Origin: Chrysophaeum taylorii
Lineage: Eukaryota > Sar > Pelagophyceae > Pelagomonadales > Pelagomonadaceae
Reading direction: 5' to 3'
Assembly (NCBI GenBank): GCA_029834535.1
Contig: JAQMWT010000136.1
Span: forward strand, 1-64,000
DNA length: 64,000 nucleotides
Shown: one piece after another, positions 549-7,422 of the stretch
How the letters are laid out: every line of letters starts with the position of its first letter
Position numbering within the stretch: position 1 is the stretch's first letter
Made by a program: the position numbers and the translations under genes
Notes under the pieces: model-generated
Databases searched by the model: none
What the model was told of the DNA's origin: nothing
Seen by the model: only the letters and a program-made list of their open reading frames with translations

Positions 549-2306
549 TTAGGTATACATTCCCCTCTGCGTCGCATCATTGGGGGTGCTGTGAACAGAG
601 AAGGGAATTTCGGGTGAAGGTGCGGGAGGTGGATGTTGTTCATAATCAGGAGGAGATTTAGAAATAAGATGTGGAAAAGTCAGTTTAGAGGAAACACGGA
701 CTTGACCGTTTTCAAGATTAAGGACAACATCGGCTAAATGATTAACATGGGGTGTTATTAAAGGGTTTATAACGTTAGCACCGCATAGGTAGATGTAGGG
801 ACGGCATCGGGGTTCGTATTTATGAAATTCATTAGGTTCCAAATGCAAATAACAAACAGAACCAAAAGGCTTTAGGTAGTCTTGTTGGGGAACATTAGAT
901 TGGTGTAACAAAACTTGTTGGGGACTTAGGACTTTATTATAAATACGTGCGAGGGAAACGTTAGGGAGGAGATTATATGATTGGATAGCATGTATAACAG
1001 CCCACGGGTAGTGTGGTGCTGGATCTGTTAGGGGGTGACCTTTATAGGATACATTAAGCAAATGCCTGAGTCGTGCAGACGCGGCAGTGGCTATGTGACC
1101 AACAGCGGCTTCGACTTCATGATTAAAGACATGTAAGTAAGAGGGGAACGCGGACACATTAATACCATGTTCCACACGGAAGGGGGTAACATGCTGAGAT
1201 AAGTAGGGTTTAAAGGAATCATAATAGATTTGTTTTAGTTGTACATGAACATAAGTAGAGCAAAAATTGCGGACAAACTCAAGGGCGTTACAAAATTCGC
1301 TGGAGTTAGTGCTACGACAAAAGTACACTAACAGAAATTTAGAAATGAGACACTTGAGGACAATAATATGTCGAAAGGATCCCCATTCCGAGAGCACAGA
1401 GACGTAACCACCGTCACGTGCCCAAGCTTCACCAGGTTGAAAATTTTTTTCGAATGATGGTTGCTTGATAAGGTGGTGTGGATGAGGAAAGCGTTTTTTA
1501 TGAATCGTACAATCCACACAGAACTTACGGTAGGGTACGTCAGATGGGTGGTGTCCAGGACTGGCAATAACCTGAACAGCTTTTATGGCTTGAGAATCAC
1601 TGGAATGGTGAATGTTGTGAAAGTTAGTAGCTCGTTGTTGCGCATCTCGAAATGCAAGGGTGCCCCTGGCATGGACTTTCTTATCGAAGGGCGCATTCTC
1701 ATGGAGCTGTCTTGGCGTTATAAGGGGTATTTGTTTTTCTTTAGTAGGAGATGATATATCTGCGGCTAGGATATTAGAGAGGAAAGCATGAGCTACTGAA
1801 TCAGTATGAAAAGAGGTGAGTTCGTGGTTAGAAGTGATAGTATCACAACATAAGAGTTTTTTATTGGGGATGTAGAACATAGTAATGGAACTCTGGTGTA
1901 ATGTCAAAGATGTATCTGTTGGGAATATATTTGTCAAGAAAGTTGACCTATAGTTTTTGGTTAGAGGAGCGTGATCAGGGTCAAACGATGGTGATAGCGT
2001 TAATGTACGCATGTCGTAAACAAGCTGACACAAGTGTTTATAAATTGTGTGATATGTTCCAGCTGGAATAGCATTTGCGATGATATCACAGCATAGGTCA
2101 GGGGACAAAGACAAAAGAAAATTGATTTGGTGCGCTGTGAAGTTATTGGCGCGTGCCAATTCGCGAGTTGAGTCGTGTCGGATGCGATCGAGTCGTGGAT
2201 CGTACACGAGCATATTAGCAAATCCACGAATAGTAGGAGTGGGAGTATATATAGAGTGAACTTTAGCACCCATCTTCCTGTCGCTTGATGTTATAAAGCC
2301 CAAATA
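549..2306 (-). pseudogene. Pre-integrase zinc finger and copia-type integrase of the retroelement
   Basis: An ORF of 584 codons, the only long unbroken piece of the polyprotein; it looks coding but has lost its upstream connection. After an N-terminal region of unknown function of about 230 residues there is an HHCC finger: Phe-His-Asn-Ile-His-His, later Cys-Val-Asp-Cys. Next comes the integrase core: Ala-Arg-Asp-Gly-Gly gives the first Asp, Ile-Tyr-Tyr-Asp the second, and Glu-Val-Glu-Ala-Ala the Glu, with exactly 35 residues between the second Asp and the last Glu. The rest resembles the copia integrase C-terminus, with a Phe-Gly-Ser-Val-Cys-Tyr motif. It ends in a Pro/Ser-rich segment, where copia elements normally run on into reverse transcriptase. 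Confidence 0.75.
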
Positions 2307-2750
2307 TCAGCTTTGGGACAAATGCATGTCACTTAAAGCAAATATTTTGTCGATAAATTCAAGACGATTTTCCTGAGGGTAGAAGACAAAAGAATCGTGA
2401 AATACAGGAGAAGTATATGAAACCAGTGCTTGTACTAGACGACGTGTGTCTTGATTTTCATTATTATGATGGTATGCTTGGCAAAGCCAAAGAAAACTGG
2501 TAACTGGTTCGAGAGAAGCAGTCTTGTTGATTCCGCCATCGTGTGTTAAAAGGGCGTAGGTTTCGCCAAAAGCATTTATGTGTGCCTGGTATTTAGAAGA
2601 AGAGTTAGAAACTGTTATGTCTCCGCCTGTGTGTCTTCCACCAGTGATGTAAATGATGAATGAAGTAGAGGATTTATTTAAGAATAACCTGTGAGATGGT
2701 TGGTTAGATTCGATAGTTGTAATACGAAAGGACACGGGTAATGTGATGGA
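2307..2750 (-). pseudogene. Linker between methyltransferase and integrase of the retroelement
   Basis: About 145 codons in the same frame as the integrase ORF, separated from it by a single TGA at 2307-2309 and from the methyltransferase end by TAA at 2751. The translated segment is soluble-looking, with a Gly-rich turn (Gly-Gly-Arg-His-Thr-Gly-Gly) and a later Glu-Pro-Val-Thr-Ser-Phe-Leu stretch. It could be the tail of the methyltransferase (motif X region) or an unrelated spacer. I recognise no family. Confidence 0.5.
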
Positions 2751-3760
2751 TTAAGGGAATAATCGTCCCATAATATTATAGAGGAGCACAAAAGCTTTGA
2801 GTTCAATAGGGGATCTCATGCAAGCTAGTGGTTTTCTTGAATTAGTCAAGAATCCCAGGCGAAAGTTATAAATGCCCTCCATTTCATCTTGACTGGGATG
2901 TTCGACTGTTTTATTAGAGTGCAGACGAAGGAACAGCATATTTAAGGTTTCAAGCTCAGTCACAGTTAAGCGTACGGGTCCAGTACGACTAAAAATATTA
3001 TAGGTTTAGGTGTGGACACAAATGGTATGTCAGGAAAGACCTGCGTCCAATGTTCGTCGACTATTAACTTGCGGCTAATGGAGTTAGCGTGGTCTGCAAT
3101 ATCCTGAAAAGAAGTGACTCGTTTATTAGGCCATGAAAGCAGATCAAGAGGGCCGGTTTTATATTTGCGTGCGACGAGGATCCATCTTTCTCTGGCTTGA
3201 TAATCTCCACATAGATAGCATGGAAATCGGTCACATATATCCACCGTATAGTGCATCGTTGAGAAGATGAGATTAGCAACTCGTATATGATCTTCATACG
3301 ATGCGGAATGTGGTGGTGTCATTTACATGAAAAGAACAAGCGGCTTTAAGAACCCAAGTACACTTAGAGCACTTGGAAACAAGGAATCATCCATATCGCG
3401 CTCGAAGGTGGAAATGGATCTCCCATTGATTTTGTTGCGATTTGTGCATGGTGATGTCAATTCCACTATGTCAGTGTAATATCGTGCACGTTCAACGTCC
3501 GATGCTCGATGGAGATATGTCAAAAACTTAGGTAGGGATGGGAAAACTTCGATGGAATTACCAAAACGTCTTCGTAGCATGTGCGCAATATTGTCGTCGC
3601 TCTCAACAAGAACTTTAACGTTGATGTTGATTTGCAAGTCATCAGAAGCGCAAGCCAAGAATGCAGGAGTGGACATCCCAGAGCAAAGTAGAGTTACTGT
3701 ATGTATTCGTGGGCTAGGAAATGAAGTTACTGTATGGAGCATACGTGTGGTAACCTTGCG
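2751..3760 (-). pseudogene. C5-cytosine DNA methyltransferase-like domain inside the retroelement, broken
   Basis: This family transfers methyl from S-adenosylmethionine to C5 of cytosine in DNA. Motifs occur in canonical order: a motif I-like Val-Thr-Leu-Leu-Cys-Ser-Gly near 3690; a motif II-like Val-Glu-Ser-Asp-Asp-Asn-Ile-Ala; the motif IV catalytic Pro-Cys (Cys codon 3446-3448) preceded by Asp-Ile-Val-Glu-Leu-Thr; a Phe-Leu-Lys-Pro-Leu-Val-Leu-Phe-Met run leading to the motif VI position. Motif VIII Gln-Ala-Arg-Glu-Arg follows (Gln codon 3197-3199), then a motif IX-like Arg-Leu-Thr-Val-Thr-Glu-Leu-Glu-Thr-Leu near 2965. Breaks: TAA at 3323 exactly where Glu of the motif VI Glu-Asn-Val is expected, a frameshift near 2966, and TAA at 2751. 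Motif I lacks the usual Phe-x-Gly-x-Gly. The target-recognition region between motifs VIII and IX is short. Inference from motifs only. Confidence 0.65.
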
Positions 3761-4339
3761 TCATACGGGAGGTGGGAAATGCTTGCGTATGTAAGGCAGC
3801 TGCGAATGCATTGACTCCAGAATGGTTTTAAGCCATGGGACGTAAATTACGCGTTCCATGAGGGTGGAATATAGTTTACGCATTTCGCGTTGTTCGTTAA
3901 AAGCACATAGTCTGAGCTGTAGTGAGCGAAGTTCCATTTTACGCGCTTTTGCTTGTTGTAGCGAATAAATTGGTAGAGTTGGCAACAGGTTACTGAGTCT
4001 AAACAAAGTAATCTTGACATTATCGTCAATTTTACTCTGGATAGATGATTGTCCTTTAAATTCAACTCCATAAAGAGGTATACCAAGTTTATCTTCTCCC
4101 CATTGAGTCATACTGATGATGTGCAGATCGGGATCGTTATTGTCGTTTTGCTTGGGTAGAAAAAGCGCAACGTCTAGCTTCACATATCCCAGATTTGGAT
4201 GCTTAGGGAGAGCGGGAATGACGGTCCTTATAATCATAGCACGTGTGATTCTCTGCGTATCCGTAGCAGTCTGGATAGCAGGTGATAAGGACTCGGGTAG
4301 CTTTACGATGTGAATAGGATCAGCATAACGTTTAACTAA
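3761..4339 (-). pseudogene. Protease C-terminal half and linker of the copia-like element
   Basis: Continues the protease in frame after the TTAG-repeat stop. It contains Leu-Asp-Val-Ala-Leu-Phe-Leu-Pro followed by Leu-His-Ile-Ile-Ser-Met. This matches the copia-protease segment usually seen as VLYVP then NLLSV, shortly before the domain ends. Downstream is an Arg/Lys/Leu-rich linker of about 90 residues with no recognised motif, ending at a TGA (3761-3763). The TGA is followed in the same frame by the methyltransferase. In a standard copia element the protease would lead directly to the pre-integrase finger, so this linker marks where the extra domain enters. TGA could derive from CGA by a C-to-T change at a CpG. 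Confidence 0.6.
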
Positions 4340-6033
4340 CTAACTAACTTCAGACCTCTCCCGAGCATGGGAGCCAGGATTGATTACATGTTGAGAAGCA
4401 CATGTGTCAGCATATCCTGGCGTAGTCATTAGCGGCAAATTGTACTCGTTGTACAGTTTAAGCATTGTTGCATAACAGGGATGTGTTGAGCTTTGACCTA
4501 TCACGTACTGTGTCATGAAACTTTGCGTTTGTTCGGAAGGCACAACGACGAGTGTAAAACCAGTGTTTAATTTTGGTAGCAACATAGGGGGATCTGTGCC
4601 ATCTTCATTATCTTCGTTGGGTAGATTATTGGGGAACTCAGAATGCGAGGAAGTTCCCCGAGCTTGACGACGAACGATAGCATTCTGAGCTTTAGCATTT
4701 ATGTGCTGCAATAGCGGCTGAGGGATATTATCGATTTCATCATCTTTAATGGACAGAAAAGTGTGGAACATTTTCTCTGTATCAGCAGTCCCCCTCTGCT
4801 CCGCATCACTGGGGGGCGCTTCAGGAGCAGATGTTTCAGTTTGATACTTTTCTTCTGAAACAAGAGATTCCTTATCGGCTTCTAAGAGGTTCACAATGGT
4901 ATTGGATATAGTATCAACTCGAAATAAGTAGAGATGAACTTGGGTGGCTTCGTCAGGATCTATGGACTGTGTCGAAGCTTGAGAAGCGGTTGTCCAGAGG
5001 GTACTCAATAAGCTTTTCATTTCCTCCTGTACCATTTTAGAGTCGGTAGAGGGGTTGGGATTCGCTTCCCGTAATTTACCAAACAGGTGGCGAAGATGAT
5101 CAACTTGATAAGTAGCCCGGTCCATAAGAGACATATTAGAGCGTGCATTACGGTTAGAGGAGTGTGAGTAGACAGGACGATCGAAACTGGTACCTTTGAC
5201 ATTATAATTTGAAGGTGGACGATAGTACGATGTGTCTCGAGGTGAAATTGTCGATGCTTTATCTTTTGCATTACGAAGCTTACGAGCGTTGAAGCCAGAT
5301 TGACCAGCCACAGTAGCCAACAATGAGTAAGCGTTGTTTAGAGAGTCGTGGGATTGATGAATAGTATCCATCAATAATACCTTATGTGGCTTGGTAGCGG
5401 TAGTACCAGGGATGTAAGGGATCCAGGAAGCGGGTTTATCCGAGCGTCGGTTAGAGGAGAACTTTGTTTCATTGTATATCTTTAACAGGAACTCCAATAA
5501 CGGACGAACGTCGTTAGGATCAACTAGCTTTAACAATTCAGGATCGTGAGTCGAGTTGTTCCCAGAGCGTGTCTCGTAGAGTTTATACCATTCCAATAAA
5601 GATTGAGAATAGCGCTCGTGATGCGAGGGATTAGCATATAGACGGTAGATCTCCTCGTGAGCTTTAAGAGTGATTGTGGAGTTATTAAATTGGATTGATG
5701 CTTCATCATTATTTAATTGCTCTGCCTGAGATTGGAAGGCAAGGAGTTGTTCGACAAATACATGGGCATACCAATTAACATTTAAAGACATTCGATTAAA
5801 CTGAGATTTAAGCTCAGTAGCATATGTACAAGACACTGTCTCATAGTAATGGTAAGCTAAAAGCATTACTGCACGTAGTTTATTAGGATGTGCAGTAAGT
5901 GCATATATCTTCTTTAATTGAGGCCACATAGCGAGTGCGGGTTTTTCTTGTGATTCCAAATTAAAGAATGTGCACAAGAAACCAGCATAAGTTTCGCAGT
6001 GTTTGATCCAGTCGGCATTAGAGAGACCTGTAA
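4340..6033 (-). pseudogene. Gag body and start of aspartic protease of the copia-like element
   Basis: A long open stretch of about 560 codons. The first two thirds are helical and polar, consistent with a capsid-like Gag, followed by a basic, Ser/Arg/Asn-rich segment and an acidic linker. No CCHC zinc knuckle is visible. The last residues carry Ala-Asp-Thr-Cys-Ala-Ser-Gln-His-Val-Ile (Asp codon at 4406-4408), which aligns with the copia protease active site (usual form Asp-Ser/Thr-Gly-Ala/Cys). The Gly position is Cys here. The reading stops at a TAG inside a TTAG tetranucleotide repeat (4329-4348). The same frame continues beyond it, so the stop probably arose by repeat slippage. Confidence 0.65.
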
Positions 6034-6291
6034 GGATATGTTAGTTAGAGATGAATCATACACAATTGATTTAGGGAATCGGGTATCTAATAAAGTGAGG
6101 ACACGTTTGACATCCTCATTTAATTCGGGACGAACGAGATTGTACGACTCTTGGTAGTAAAGTCGTTCAAGATTATTACGGACATCAACTGATAGTTGAT
6201 GCGATGAGTTGACGTGCCAAGTTTTAAGATGATCAGGCAGGGCATCTTCATCAGGGAAGGGTGGAGAAGGGTAAGCACGAGGGAAAGCCAT
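6034..6291 (-). pseudogene. Gag N-terminal part of the copia-like element, frameshifted
   Basis: An ATG at 6291 opens a reading frame rich in Leu, Asn and Tyr, with helical composition typical of a copia Gag start. Near 6028-6033 the sensible reading moves by one base into the frame of the next block, which continues through Asn-Ala-Asp-Trp-Ile-Lys into the main Gag body. A single-base deletion explains this. The alternative of a spliced intron is considered under rejected items. A related but diverged start (ACG in place of ATG) is found in the second fragment near 7.3 kb, which supports this being a family-conserved region. No family-specific motif is visible here, so assignment to Gag rests on position upstream of the protease. 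Confidence 0.55.
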
Positions 6292-7306
6292 ATTAATTCG
6301 GAGAGAAAACCCTCATGATGATGGATTGTAAGAAATGGTGCAAAGAGCTCCAGAGCGTCGTACATATTATGAGTGAACTCTCTGGAAGACCATCAGCCAA
6401 TATATCGACTAACTGGTGCTCGAGCTTGAAAATATCCGTCGTAGAGACAGGCTTGGTACAGACAGGCTTGGACTTTGCCATAATTGATATTTGTTATGGA
6501 CTTCTGGTTTGGAAGGTATTGAGGGGTAACCTGCGGAGATAGGCTAGAGGATTGATAAACAAATGCGACACATTTGAAAGAAGAGTTCTAATGTGTGCGT
6601 GTAATATGTACAATACACTATCGTTAAAGCGTGGGCTTATGTAGAAGACCAAACAGTTCAACATGTCAGTTAAACATGGTGATCTGAGACTGACAAGAAA
6701 TATGTTAATTCCTTGTCAAACAGTCCTTGGTTGGGAATGTAGGAAAAAACCCGCGCATGTTTCCGCAGCATGCGATGGAAAGTTTAGTTTTATTGAATCA
6801 TGCAAGTGCACGTGTTCAGTGGCCGACCTAACTCGGTCACGAACCATATAGCTGGTGGGCACGCACCGTCACAAGAAAAACATGTAGAGTAGACCAGCGC
6901 CAGACACATTTTCGTTTTATACTCGTAATCAGGCGCGAACTGAACTGAACCGGTCGCTTCGTTAAGCGCACAAAACACATGGACTAACACACCTACGCGT
7001 CTGGGCCCATAACCTAGAGAGATTTGACCCTCTCCGGGTGTATGGTAGAGACCGCGTGCGGTCTTAGGTGCGACTAGACCATTCTGCATGTCACGTGTTA
7101 CTACACAAGGCAGGAATATAGCTCCTCACTTCCCCAGGGGCATTAAGTCCCAGAGAAGCTTTCACACTGACAACGAGGCACAGAGCTACTGCTAATTAAG
7201 CAACAGACTCTGGACCCTACGGCACGCAAAGGGTGGATTTCTCCTGTCAGGAAGAAAACACTAGATGAGTTCTCATAGTTGAAAGCGGAAGGGAGGAAGG
7301 GAAAGG
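6292..7306. other. Region upstream of Gag, possible 5' leader or LTR of the retroelement
   Basis: On the minus strand this lies directly 5' of Gag. The part nearest Gag (6293-6390) can be read as a short upstream coding segment and is matched by the fragment at 7307-7422. Further out I see a short tandem repeat (about 14 bp, 6443-6475) and a perfect small hairpin near 7049-7064. No LTR ends, TATA box or tRNA primer-binding site could be assigned. No host gene is evident. Confidence 0.35.
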
Positions 7307-7422
7307 TTGAGGGAAAGCCGTATTAGTTCGGAGAGAAAACCCTCATGGGAGATTGAGGTGTGACAGAAGGCACGAAGAGCTCCAGAGCGTTGTACATGTT
7401 ATGAGTCAACTCTCTGGATTGA
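7307..7422 (-). mobile_element. Short diverged second copy of the retroelement's pre-Gag/Gag start
   Basis: About 115 bp here match 6282-6386 closely. Both contain gagggaaagcc, then a tatta-ttcggagagaaa core, then aaaaccctcatg, and further on aagagctccagagcg and ttatgag. Similarity stops abruptly near 7422, after aactctctgga. Both read Met-Arg-Val-Phe-Ser-Pro-Asn then stop in one minus-strand frame. The Gag ATG of the first copy is ACG here. This indicates a fragment of a second, older or divergent insertion of the same family lying head-adjacent to the first. Confidence 0.7.

Follow-up and report, generated by a model that had tools for sequence, protein, structure and literature searches.

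A cytosine-methyltransferase-like domain between protease and integrase in two Copia-type retrotransposon families of one algal genome

Two divergent families of Copia-type LTR retrotransposons in one algal genome carry a C5-cytosine-methyltransferase-like domain in the Pol polyprotein, between protease and integrase. Family A includes the element of the window (the whole stretch of DNA that was analysed, 64,000 nucleotides, G000:C136:1-64000; the genome searched is an assembly of 70.8 Mb in 697 contigs), and in this family the domain keeps its place and order, is conserved family-wide and under purifying selection, and is preceded by a conserved in-frame TGA. In family B the same order holds an unmistakable methyltransferase, in an LTR-flanked insertion with a target duplication. 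It is probable that the Pol of family A carries a domain derived from a C5-cytosine methyltransferase and that a readthrough product methylates the cDNA or RNA of the element, and our results suggest that such elements could write the marks that hosts normally use for silencing them. The preliminary description of this DNA had placed a C5-methyltransferase-like domain between a Copia protease and integrase; the place, the order and the existence of open family copies stood, and family A fell under the Pfam cut-off. Its observation, partly confirmed, is real in outline and larger than first described, and its interpretation as a captured enzyme with which the element may methylate its own DNA is partly supported.

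The window element and its family

The window element belongs to an abundant family of Copia-like LTR retrotransposons and is a decayed copy, with a G+C content of 42.3% (549-6312) versus 61.5% in the host part of the window (8001-64000), and all of its features given here lie on the minus strand. An LTR-like stretch upstream of gag (7014..7352), with 74% identity to sequence lying 3' of the final ORF in the family copy on C428, is a candidate 5' LTR. The gag-protease ORF (4340..6040, 566 aa) resembles the gag ORFs of other copies and gave no match in a Pfam scan, and gag-like sequence extends in other frames to about 6493. A protease active-site-like motif, Tyr-Ala-Asp-Thr-Cys-Ala-Ser, was recognized by eye at 4379..4414 (Asp codon 4406-4408), and its aspartate position is occupied by D in 28, E in one and G in one of the 30 loci with a match among 33 searched; the motif reads DGGAS in family B and DTGAN in two ordinary Copia elements from this genome. 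The gag-protease ORF meets the methyltransferase ORF, in the same frame, at a TGA stop (3761..3763) that is a candidate readthrough site. The methyltransferase-like domain, with motifs I to X and broken in the window copy, occupies 2031..3688, and the integrase, with its zinc-binding part, core and SH3-like part, lies at 552..1676, where the contig start truncates the element before the reverse transcriptase (RT). Pfam matches to rve (E 0.0019) and SH3_retrovirus (E 2.7e-5) within 549-2306 are both under the Pfam cut-offs, and the integrase shares 25% identity over 297 residues (E 2e-17) with that of the 1952-residue Pol frame of family B.

Two side observations concern the gag-protease part of this copy. 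The protease region is interrupted at 4334-4378 (stop 4340-4342) by a short insert that carries a (GTTA)n tail; the sequence of this insert recurs in L071:1173-1217 (98% over 45 bases), and L071 from 1173 onward also matches L067:1961-2160 and L033, so that another mobile element was probably involved. An LTR-like sequence is apparently duplicated near the start of gag (6260-6500, by eye), and the N-terminal part of gag therefore seems rearranged in the window copy.

Within the domain, the motif I candidate Leu-Cys-Ser-Gly (3677..3688) was assigned by eye and not by profile, and LCSG is found in 13/13 contiguous copies. Motif IV, Ser-Pro-Cys (3446..3454), is present in 13/13 copies and aligns to the Pro-Cys of known enzymes, with the catalytic Cys codon at 3446-3448 on the minus strand as originally claimed; motif VIII, Gln-Ala-Arg-Glu-Arg (3185..3199, 12/13 copies), starts with the Gln codon 3197-3199 that had been given correctly, and both motifs lie, as described, downstream of the protease-like motif and upstream of a Copia-like integrase. 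At the glutamate position of motif VI (3323..3325), where 13/13 contiguous copies read Met-Glu-Met, a stop codon is found in the window copy. Its frame changes at approximately 3005, the window position at which two tblastn pieces of L035 join (locus position 1180), and two further stops between motifs VIII and IX (2751..2753 and 2307..2309) are open in L065 and L066.

The motif IX candidate RIRHDSTRELARANNF (2139..2186; STRELA in 13/13) and the motif X candidate DIIANAIPAGTYHTIYKHL (2031..2087; ANAIP in 13/13) were both placed by the second hhalign sub-alignment to the C5-methyltransferase profile (P 0.08). The apparent place of motifs IX-X in the window copy is thus 2186-2031, immediately ahead of the integrase and inside the ORF earlier assigned to integrase; should this placement hold, the domain would extend from 3688 to 2031, with more than 300 residues between motifs VIII and IX. 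The interval 2751..3742, given originally as the extent of the domain, has to be revised, as it holds the stops at 3323-3325 and 2751-2753 and the frame change near 3005 and leaves the candidate motifs IX-X outside. An Arg-Leu-Thr-x-x-Glu run at 2751-3005 is nearly invariant across 15 aligned copies of family A; it had been read as motif IX-like, an assignment that is likely wrong, though not disproved, since hhalign aligns another stretch (2186-2031) to motif IX.

Searching the genome with the window block gave at least 150 matches, the window's own included (150 of 737 candidates scored), and all 150 scored had E 8.2e-75 or better; the counts for families A and B are lower bounds and include broken copies. 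Of the 46 integrase matches beginning with residue 1 of the window integrase ORF, at least 37 have the block upstream on the same strand (the TGA junction in two), as judged from the 150 of 737 block candidates scored, and the distance is 1011-1029 bases in 27 of those 37. The block is accordingly not a nested gene fragment, a possibility that had been raised against it. Downstream of the integrase, RVT_2 was matched in family B (E 1.6e-38) and, for family A, in L065 (E 5.1e-32), the window copy being truncated before this part. An extra ORF follows RT-RNase H in family A (L070:1436-3001, 522 residues to the locus end, and L071:2-901), for which the Pfam scan gave no match over cut-off.

Ordinary Ty1/Copia elements of the same genome were found with the gag_pre-integrase family (at least 150 matches, 150 of 206 candidates scored). 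In two of these, too, gag and protease precede an integrase that has a pre-integrase region; unlike them, families A and B carry the methyltransferase-like domain between protease and integrase. The distance from the protease motif to the pre-integrase WHARLGH is 182 residues in the two ordinary elements, with no methyltransferase in these 182 residues, and 874 residues separate the protease motif from the integrase zinc region in the family B element on C96.

Identity of the domain in families A and B

The identification is clearest in family B. A genome search with PF00145, in which 123 of 474 candidates were scored, found at least 57 matches, and 28 of the 30 loci returned belong to family B, the other two being the host genes L001 and L002. 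PF00145 matched 12/12 aligned members of family B (best E 3.3e-10; the first member reached 35.9 bits, where the cut-off is 22), no other Pfam family matched these 12, and hhalign against C5-methyltransferases gave P 4e-9. Searched against the PDB, the family B profile returned nine sequences at E up to 1 (best 0.032), all named cytosine-specific methyltransferase or HhaI and none named DNMT3 or DNMT1. In the protein collection, relatives of family B were limited to one weak match (E 0.22) among 8000 candidates scored.

The family B copy on C96 (C96:60459-70083) contains gag and one frame of 1952 residues comprising the protease motif DGGAS (by eye), the methyltransferase (PF00145, E 1.1e-7), the integrase (rve, E 0.0061, under the cut-off) and RVT_2 (E 1.6e-38). 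This copy is not intact, as the frame stops at a TAA after the RT and an RNase H-like part (by eye) continues in the same frame. Its LTRs of 208 and 196 bp are 89% alike, and the element is flanked by the 5-bp repeat CTCAC, read by eye as the target duplication. Read from stop to stop, gag and pol of this copy lie in different frames with an overlap of 40 bases, so that frameshifting is likely there instead of readthrough. A perfect 217-bp tandem duplication was also seen in gag of this copy (L031:957-1390).

Family A is very diverged. The seven window pieces scanned gave no Pfam methylase match even at E 10, and the window copy alone could therefore not prove a methyltransferase. The check proposed in the preliminary description, a Pfam methylase profile search in family copies, came out positive for family B and left family A below the cut-off: no member passed the curated threshold of PF00145 (best E 0.14), which nevertheless matched 10/15 members at E up to 10 and was the sole Pfam family matched by more than one member. 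PHROG 116 (DNA methyltransferase) was the only PHROG match of the two family A members scanned (E 0.33 and 0.38), and NCBIfam profiles gave no match to two members. No methyltransferase was found in the PDB profile search with family A, and single-sequence searches for family A gave no significant match. Relatives of family A at E up to 1 were absent among the 2939 candidates of the protein collection with a length similar to the 1464-residue Pol, and viral contigs held no relatives of A or B.

A profile HMM was built from 122 reference enzymes, namely 120 metagenomic or presumably bacterial C5-methyltransferases together with the host DNMT2-like and DNMT5-type domains. With this HMM, 15/15 members of family A scored 7.5-11.4 bits, against 6.0 bits for the best of 3000 shuffled A sequences and 4.3 for the best of 912 reversed ORFs; with 12 family B sequences added, the scores rose to 9.3-12.2 bits, against 6.3 (shuffled) and 4.6 (reversed). 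The alignment of family A to C5-methyltransferases by hhalign brought motifs IV, VI and VIII into register at P 0.0027; a longer alignment of family A gave P 0.0039 and the second, later piece over motifs IX-X described above. The reverse search, with the A profile against the 122 reference enzymes, gave 5.7 bits versus 5.5 for shuffled enzymes, and the A profile scored family B at 0.3 bits. The direct comparison of A and B was not significant (P 0.28 and 0.33), and motifs IX-X scored alone stayed within the shuffles in both families; strings at the corresponding place in family B (TLNEIA and LANAVP) were noted by eye, and the profile gave them no support.

It is very unlikely that the family A block is something other than a methyltransferase, with motifs that arose coincidentally in an unknown Copia insertion. 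Such a reading would be in line with the lack of a significant Pfam, NCBIfam, PDB or single-sequence match and with the reverse profile search at shuffle level, but it is opposed by the in-register profile match above 3000 shuffles, by two libraries (Pfam and PHROG) that rank DNA methyltransferase best for family A, with weak E values, and by motifs standing in order with a clear methyltransferase at the same place in family B. The conservation of the block across the family (SPC in 13/13 and YQARER in 12/13 contiguous copies) is beyond chance. Family A is thus taken as a diverged C5 methyltransferase from the profile results summed and from the position in Pol that it shares with family B.

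Capture of the host DNMT5 or DNMT2 was considered as the origin of these domains and was not favoured. For two copies of each family, Smith-Waterman z-scores (from 200 shuffles each) were 2.6-4.6 (DNMT5), 1.6-1.7 (DNMT2) and 2.3-9.2 (11 presumably bacterial enzymes) for family A, and 2.5-3.9, 1.3-1.6 and 9.2-20.0, respectively, for family B, a comparison that is biased because the query behind the 11 presumably bacterial targets had itself come from the B profile. Some of these 11 score below DNMT5 for family A, and motif I of family A resembles the DNMT5 form by eye.

Selection and the conserved in-frame TGA

Strong purifying selection acts on the domain in both families. Median dN/dS in family A was 0.029 over motifs I-VIII, 0.109 in the region between VIII and IX and 0.098 over motifs IX-X, and the corresponding values in family B were 0.11, 0.18 and 0.198. 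With repeats removed, the value of 0.029 was derived from 9 stop-free of 13 contiguous copies (34 loci seen) and that of 0.11 from 6 stop-free of 10 contiguous copies (28 loci seen); the use of stop-free copies only favours low values. A wider set of family A (20 stop-free copies; 23 were near-full among 33 fetched) gave a median of 0.072, with 158 of 190 pairs having dS >0.05 and a highest dS of 1.27, and a wider set of family B (16 stop-free rows, including four for genomic places already represented) had a median of 0.156 for 116 of 120 pairs.

The key residues are kept in the same way. The Pro-Cys of motif IV and the glutamate of motif VI are present in 13/13 copies of family A (as SPC in motif IV) and in 10/10 copies of family B (as LPCQ and VENV), the window copy having its stop at the glutamate position. 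Motif I of C5-methyltransferases usually has the form FxGxG. Catalytic activity is uncertain because motif I of family A is degenerate and motif VIII of family B reads I-x-K-x-R (10/10 copies), and these two departures, together with the more than 300 residues between motifs VIII and IX in both families if the placement of IX is right, would fit a methyltransferase descendant that is no longer catalytic and serves instead to bind nucleic acid or to keep the polyprotein together. This alternative seems to us somewhat unlikely, since the Pro-Cys and the motif VI glutamate are retained in all 13 contiguous copies of family A and all 10 of family B, and the core of family A evolves with a median dN/dS as low as that expected for a catalytic site.

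In 33/33 fetched copies of family A, the window's included, the TGA immediately precedes the methyltransferase ORF and is in frame with it, and it is therefore a family feature; the idea that all stops of the window element are decay does not extend to this one. Across the genome, the junction pattern occurred at 150 sites with this codon left free and at 150 with TGA fixed (100 places listed each), and at 157 sites with the next codon free, so that 7/157 differ there. The TGA is also kept in L065, up to dS 1.27 from other copies, although the copies are related by descent and not independent, and in young copies the TGA is partly inherited from common ancestors. Judging from the 33/33 fetched copies and from all 150 junction-pattern sites, the methyltransferase-integrase-RT part of family A is probably made by stop readthrough, and the TGA is probably not damage. 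The TGA might instead be the plain end of gag-protease, with the methyltransferase-Pol ORF translated from another start or another RNA, a reading that we find rather doubtful: the equal numbers of sites for the open codon and for the fixed TGA are expected of a plain stop too, but the downstream ORF keeps the frame of gag-protease, and 3/4 copies examined lack an ATG ahead of motif I (the window copy has one). RNA folds after the TGA differ among four copies, in a comparison made with no shuffle control.

Under the preferred readthrough explanation, the element would make Gag-protease as its main product, and a minority of ribosomes would pass the conserved TGA to yield a polyprotein from Gag and protease through methyltransferase and integrase to RT and RNase H. 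The methyltransferase could then enter the particle together with RT and integrase and methylate the cDNA (or RNA) of the element around reverse transcription and integration, and the benefit may be that the new copy is masked or lodged in a silent, tolerated state.

CpG patterns, host enzymes and relation to known elements

The observed/expected ratio of CpG was 1.31 for the host part of the window, against 0.88-0.94 in four stretches of family A and 1.03-1.04 in three stretches of family B. Among copies of family A (134 pairs from 17 loci, not independent), transitions per site amounted to 0.057 at CpG versus 0.035 at GpC (1.6 times), and transversions to 0.011 versus 0.010 (1.1 times); in family B, transitions were 0.050 at CpG versus 0.042 at GpC (11 pairs of 12 loci within the length and identity limits). 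The CpG depletion in the elements is mild and fits some methylation, whoever the author of the marks may be. An enzyme acting on RNA, either the element RNA or the primer tRNA, and not on DNA would be consistent with so mild a loss of CpG, and RNA methylation was raised for SymbioLINE-Dnmt in the portion of PMC5890265 available to us. Nevertheless, the domain adjoins integrase and RT, where cDNA arises, and the excess at CpG in family A is in transitions and hardly in transversions, so that we hold an RNA substrate to be unlikely.

Two host methyltransferase genes were recovered. L002 (G000:C621), a DNMT5-type gene with an open frame of 2086 residues, combines a methyltransferase with a weak RING-like part (E 0.23) and matches chain 7r76 (E 3e-143), deposited as 'DNA repair protein Rad8', which we take to be Cryptococcus DNMT5; DNMT5 is a maintenance-type enzyme in Cryptococcus. 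L001 is presumably a DNMT2-like gene, named by eye from its motifs. No DNMT1 or DNMT3 gene was among the loci returned from the 123/474 candidates scored, where intron-split genes or the 27 matches assigned to no locus could hide one. The mild CpG loss could be caused by the DNMT5-type gene of the host. Going further, the CpG pattern and any methylation of the elements might be due entirely to this host DNMT5, the element domain having another task; the presence of L002 in the genome speaks for this, but the selection on the element's own domain would be left unexplained, and we give this account a minor share of our confidence.

A bolder possibility, to which we attach only a small chance, is that the Copia-borne methyltransferases are the source of de novo cytosine methylation in this genome, with the elements marking their own cDNA, the host DNMT5 copying the mark, and the dose in family A set by programmed readthrough of the TGA. 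This idea arises from the sight of only DNMT5-type and DNMT2-like host genes versus more than 170 Copia-borne loci (broken ones included). If true, one epigenetic system would be divided between parasite and host, and a host with only such genes would be a clean setting for the origin of new methylation.

Retroelement-borne DNMTs in LINE, DIRS and Gypsy elements are already known, and the mention in the preliminary description of such enzymes in dinoflagellates and charophytes agrees with the accessible part of a 2018 report (de Mendoza et al., PMC5890265). According to this part, KnitGypsy-Dnmt3 of Klebsormidium nitens is an LTR retrotransposon with a C5-methyltransferase within its Pol polyprotein under purifying selection, features shared by the families described here; unlike this Gypsy element, with an enzyme of the Dnmt3 clade and a charophyte host, families A and B are of the Copia type by RVT_2. 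The same excerpts describe SymbioDIRS-Dnmt3 and SymbioLINE-Dnmt of Symbiodinium in high copy number, the SymbioDIRS enzymes methylating CG de novo in yeast and the SymbioLINE enzymes forming an orphan lineage (PMC5890265). The present families resemble them in high copy number and in a C5-methyltransferase carried by a retroelement, and differ in that those carriers are DIRS (with tyrosine recombinase) and LINE elements of dinoflagellate hosts; Copia elements of Symbiodinium are reported there to lack any DNMT domain (PMC5890265). A 2025 paper (PMC12344493), as far as its text was available, likewise names Copia as a carrier, placing DNMT3 in 'LTR Copia and DIRS' retrotransposons and citing for this the 2018 report on streptophytes and dinoflagellates, but it concerns DNMT3 and not an orphan enzyme, and it describes no protease-methyltransferase-integrase order in that text; in contrast to its Copia wording, the available part of the attributed paper (PMC5890265) describes Gypsy, LINE and DIRS carriers. 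The available portions of PMC9998398, PMC12477816, PMC6338049 and PMC9033089 describe no Copia-borne C5 methyltransferase, and the open-licence literature searched yielded no account of a methyltransferase lying between the protease and the integrase of a Copia element. As judged from sequence and profiles, the new elements of the present case would be the Copia carrier, the protease-methyltransferase-integrase order and a putative orphan enzyme (family B is by profile close to no solved DNMT1 or DNMT3). Also new are the two divergent families in one genome, their high copy number, the conserved in-frame TGA of family A and the fucoxanthin-type alga as host.

Retroelements are usually the victims of DNA methylation. 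A methyltransferase domain kept under selection and in high copy number, in a further algal group and a further class of retroelement, indicates that such capture recurs, and poses the question of whether an element that writes the mark gains shelter or restrains itself.

The host is regarded as a fucoxanthin-type alga on the grounds of 84 antenna-protein matches in the genome and of a fucoxanthin-chlorophyll antenna gene just right of the window (G000:C136:64885-65361), whose closest solved relatives are fucoxanthin proteins; several of these relatives are, we assume, diatom proteins. Equally scoring antenna matches are clustered on C88, C539, C533 and C390.
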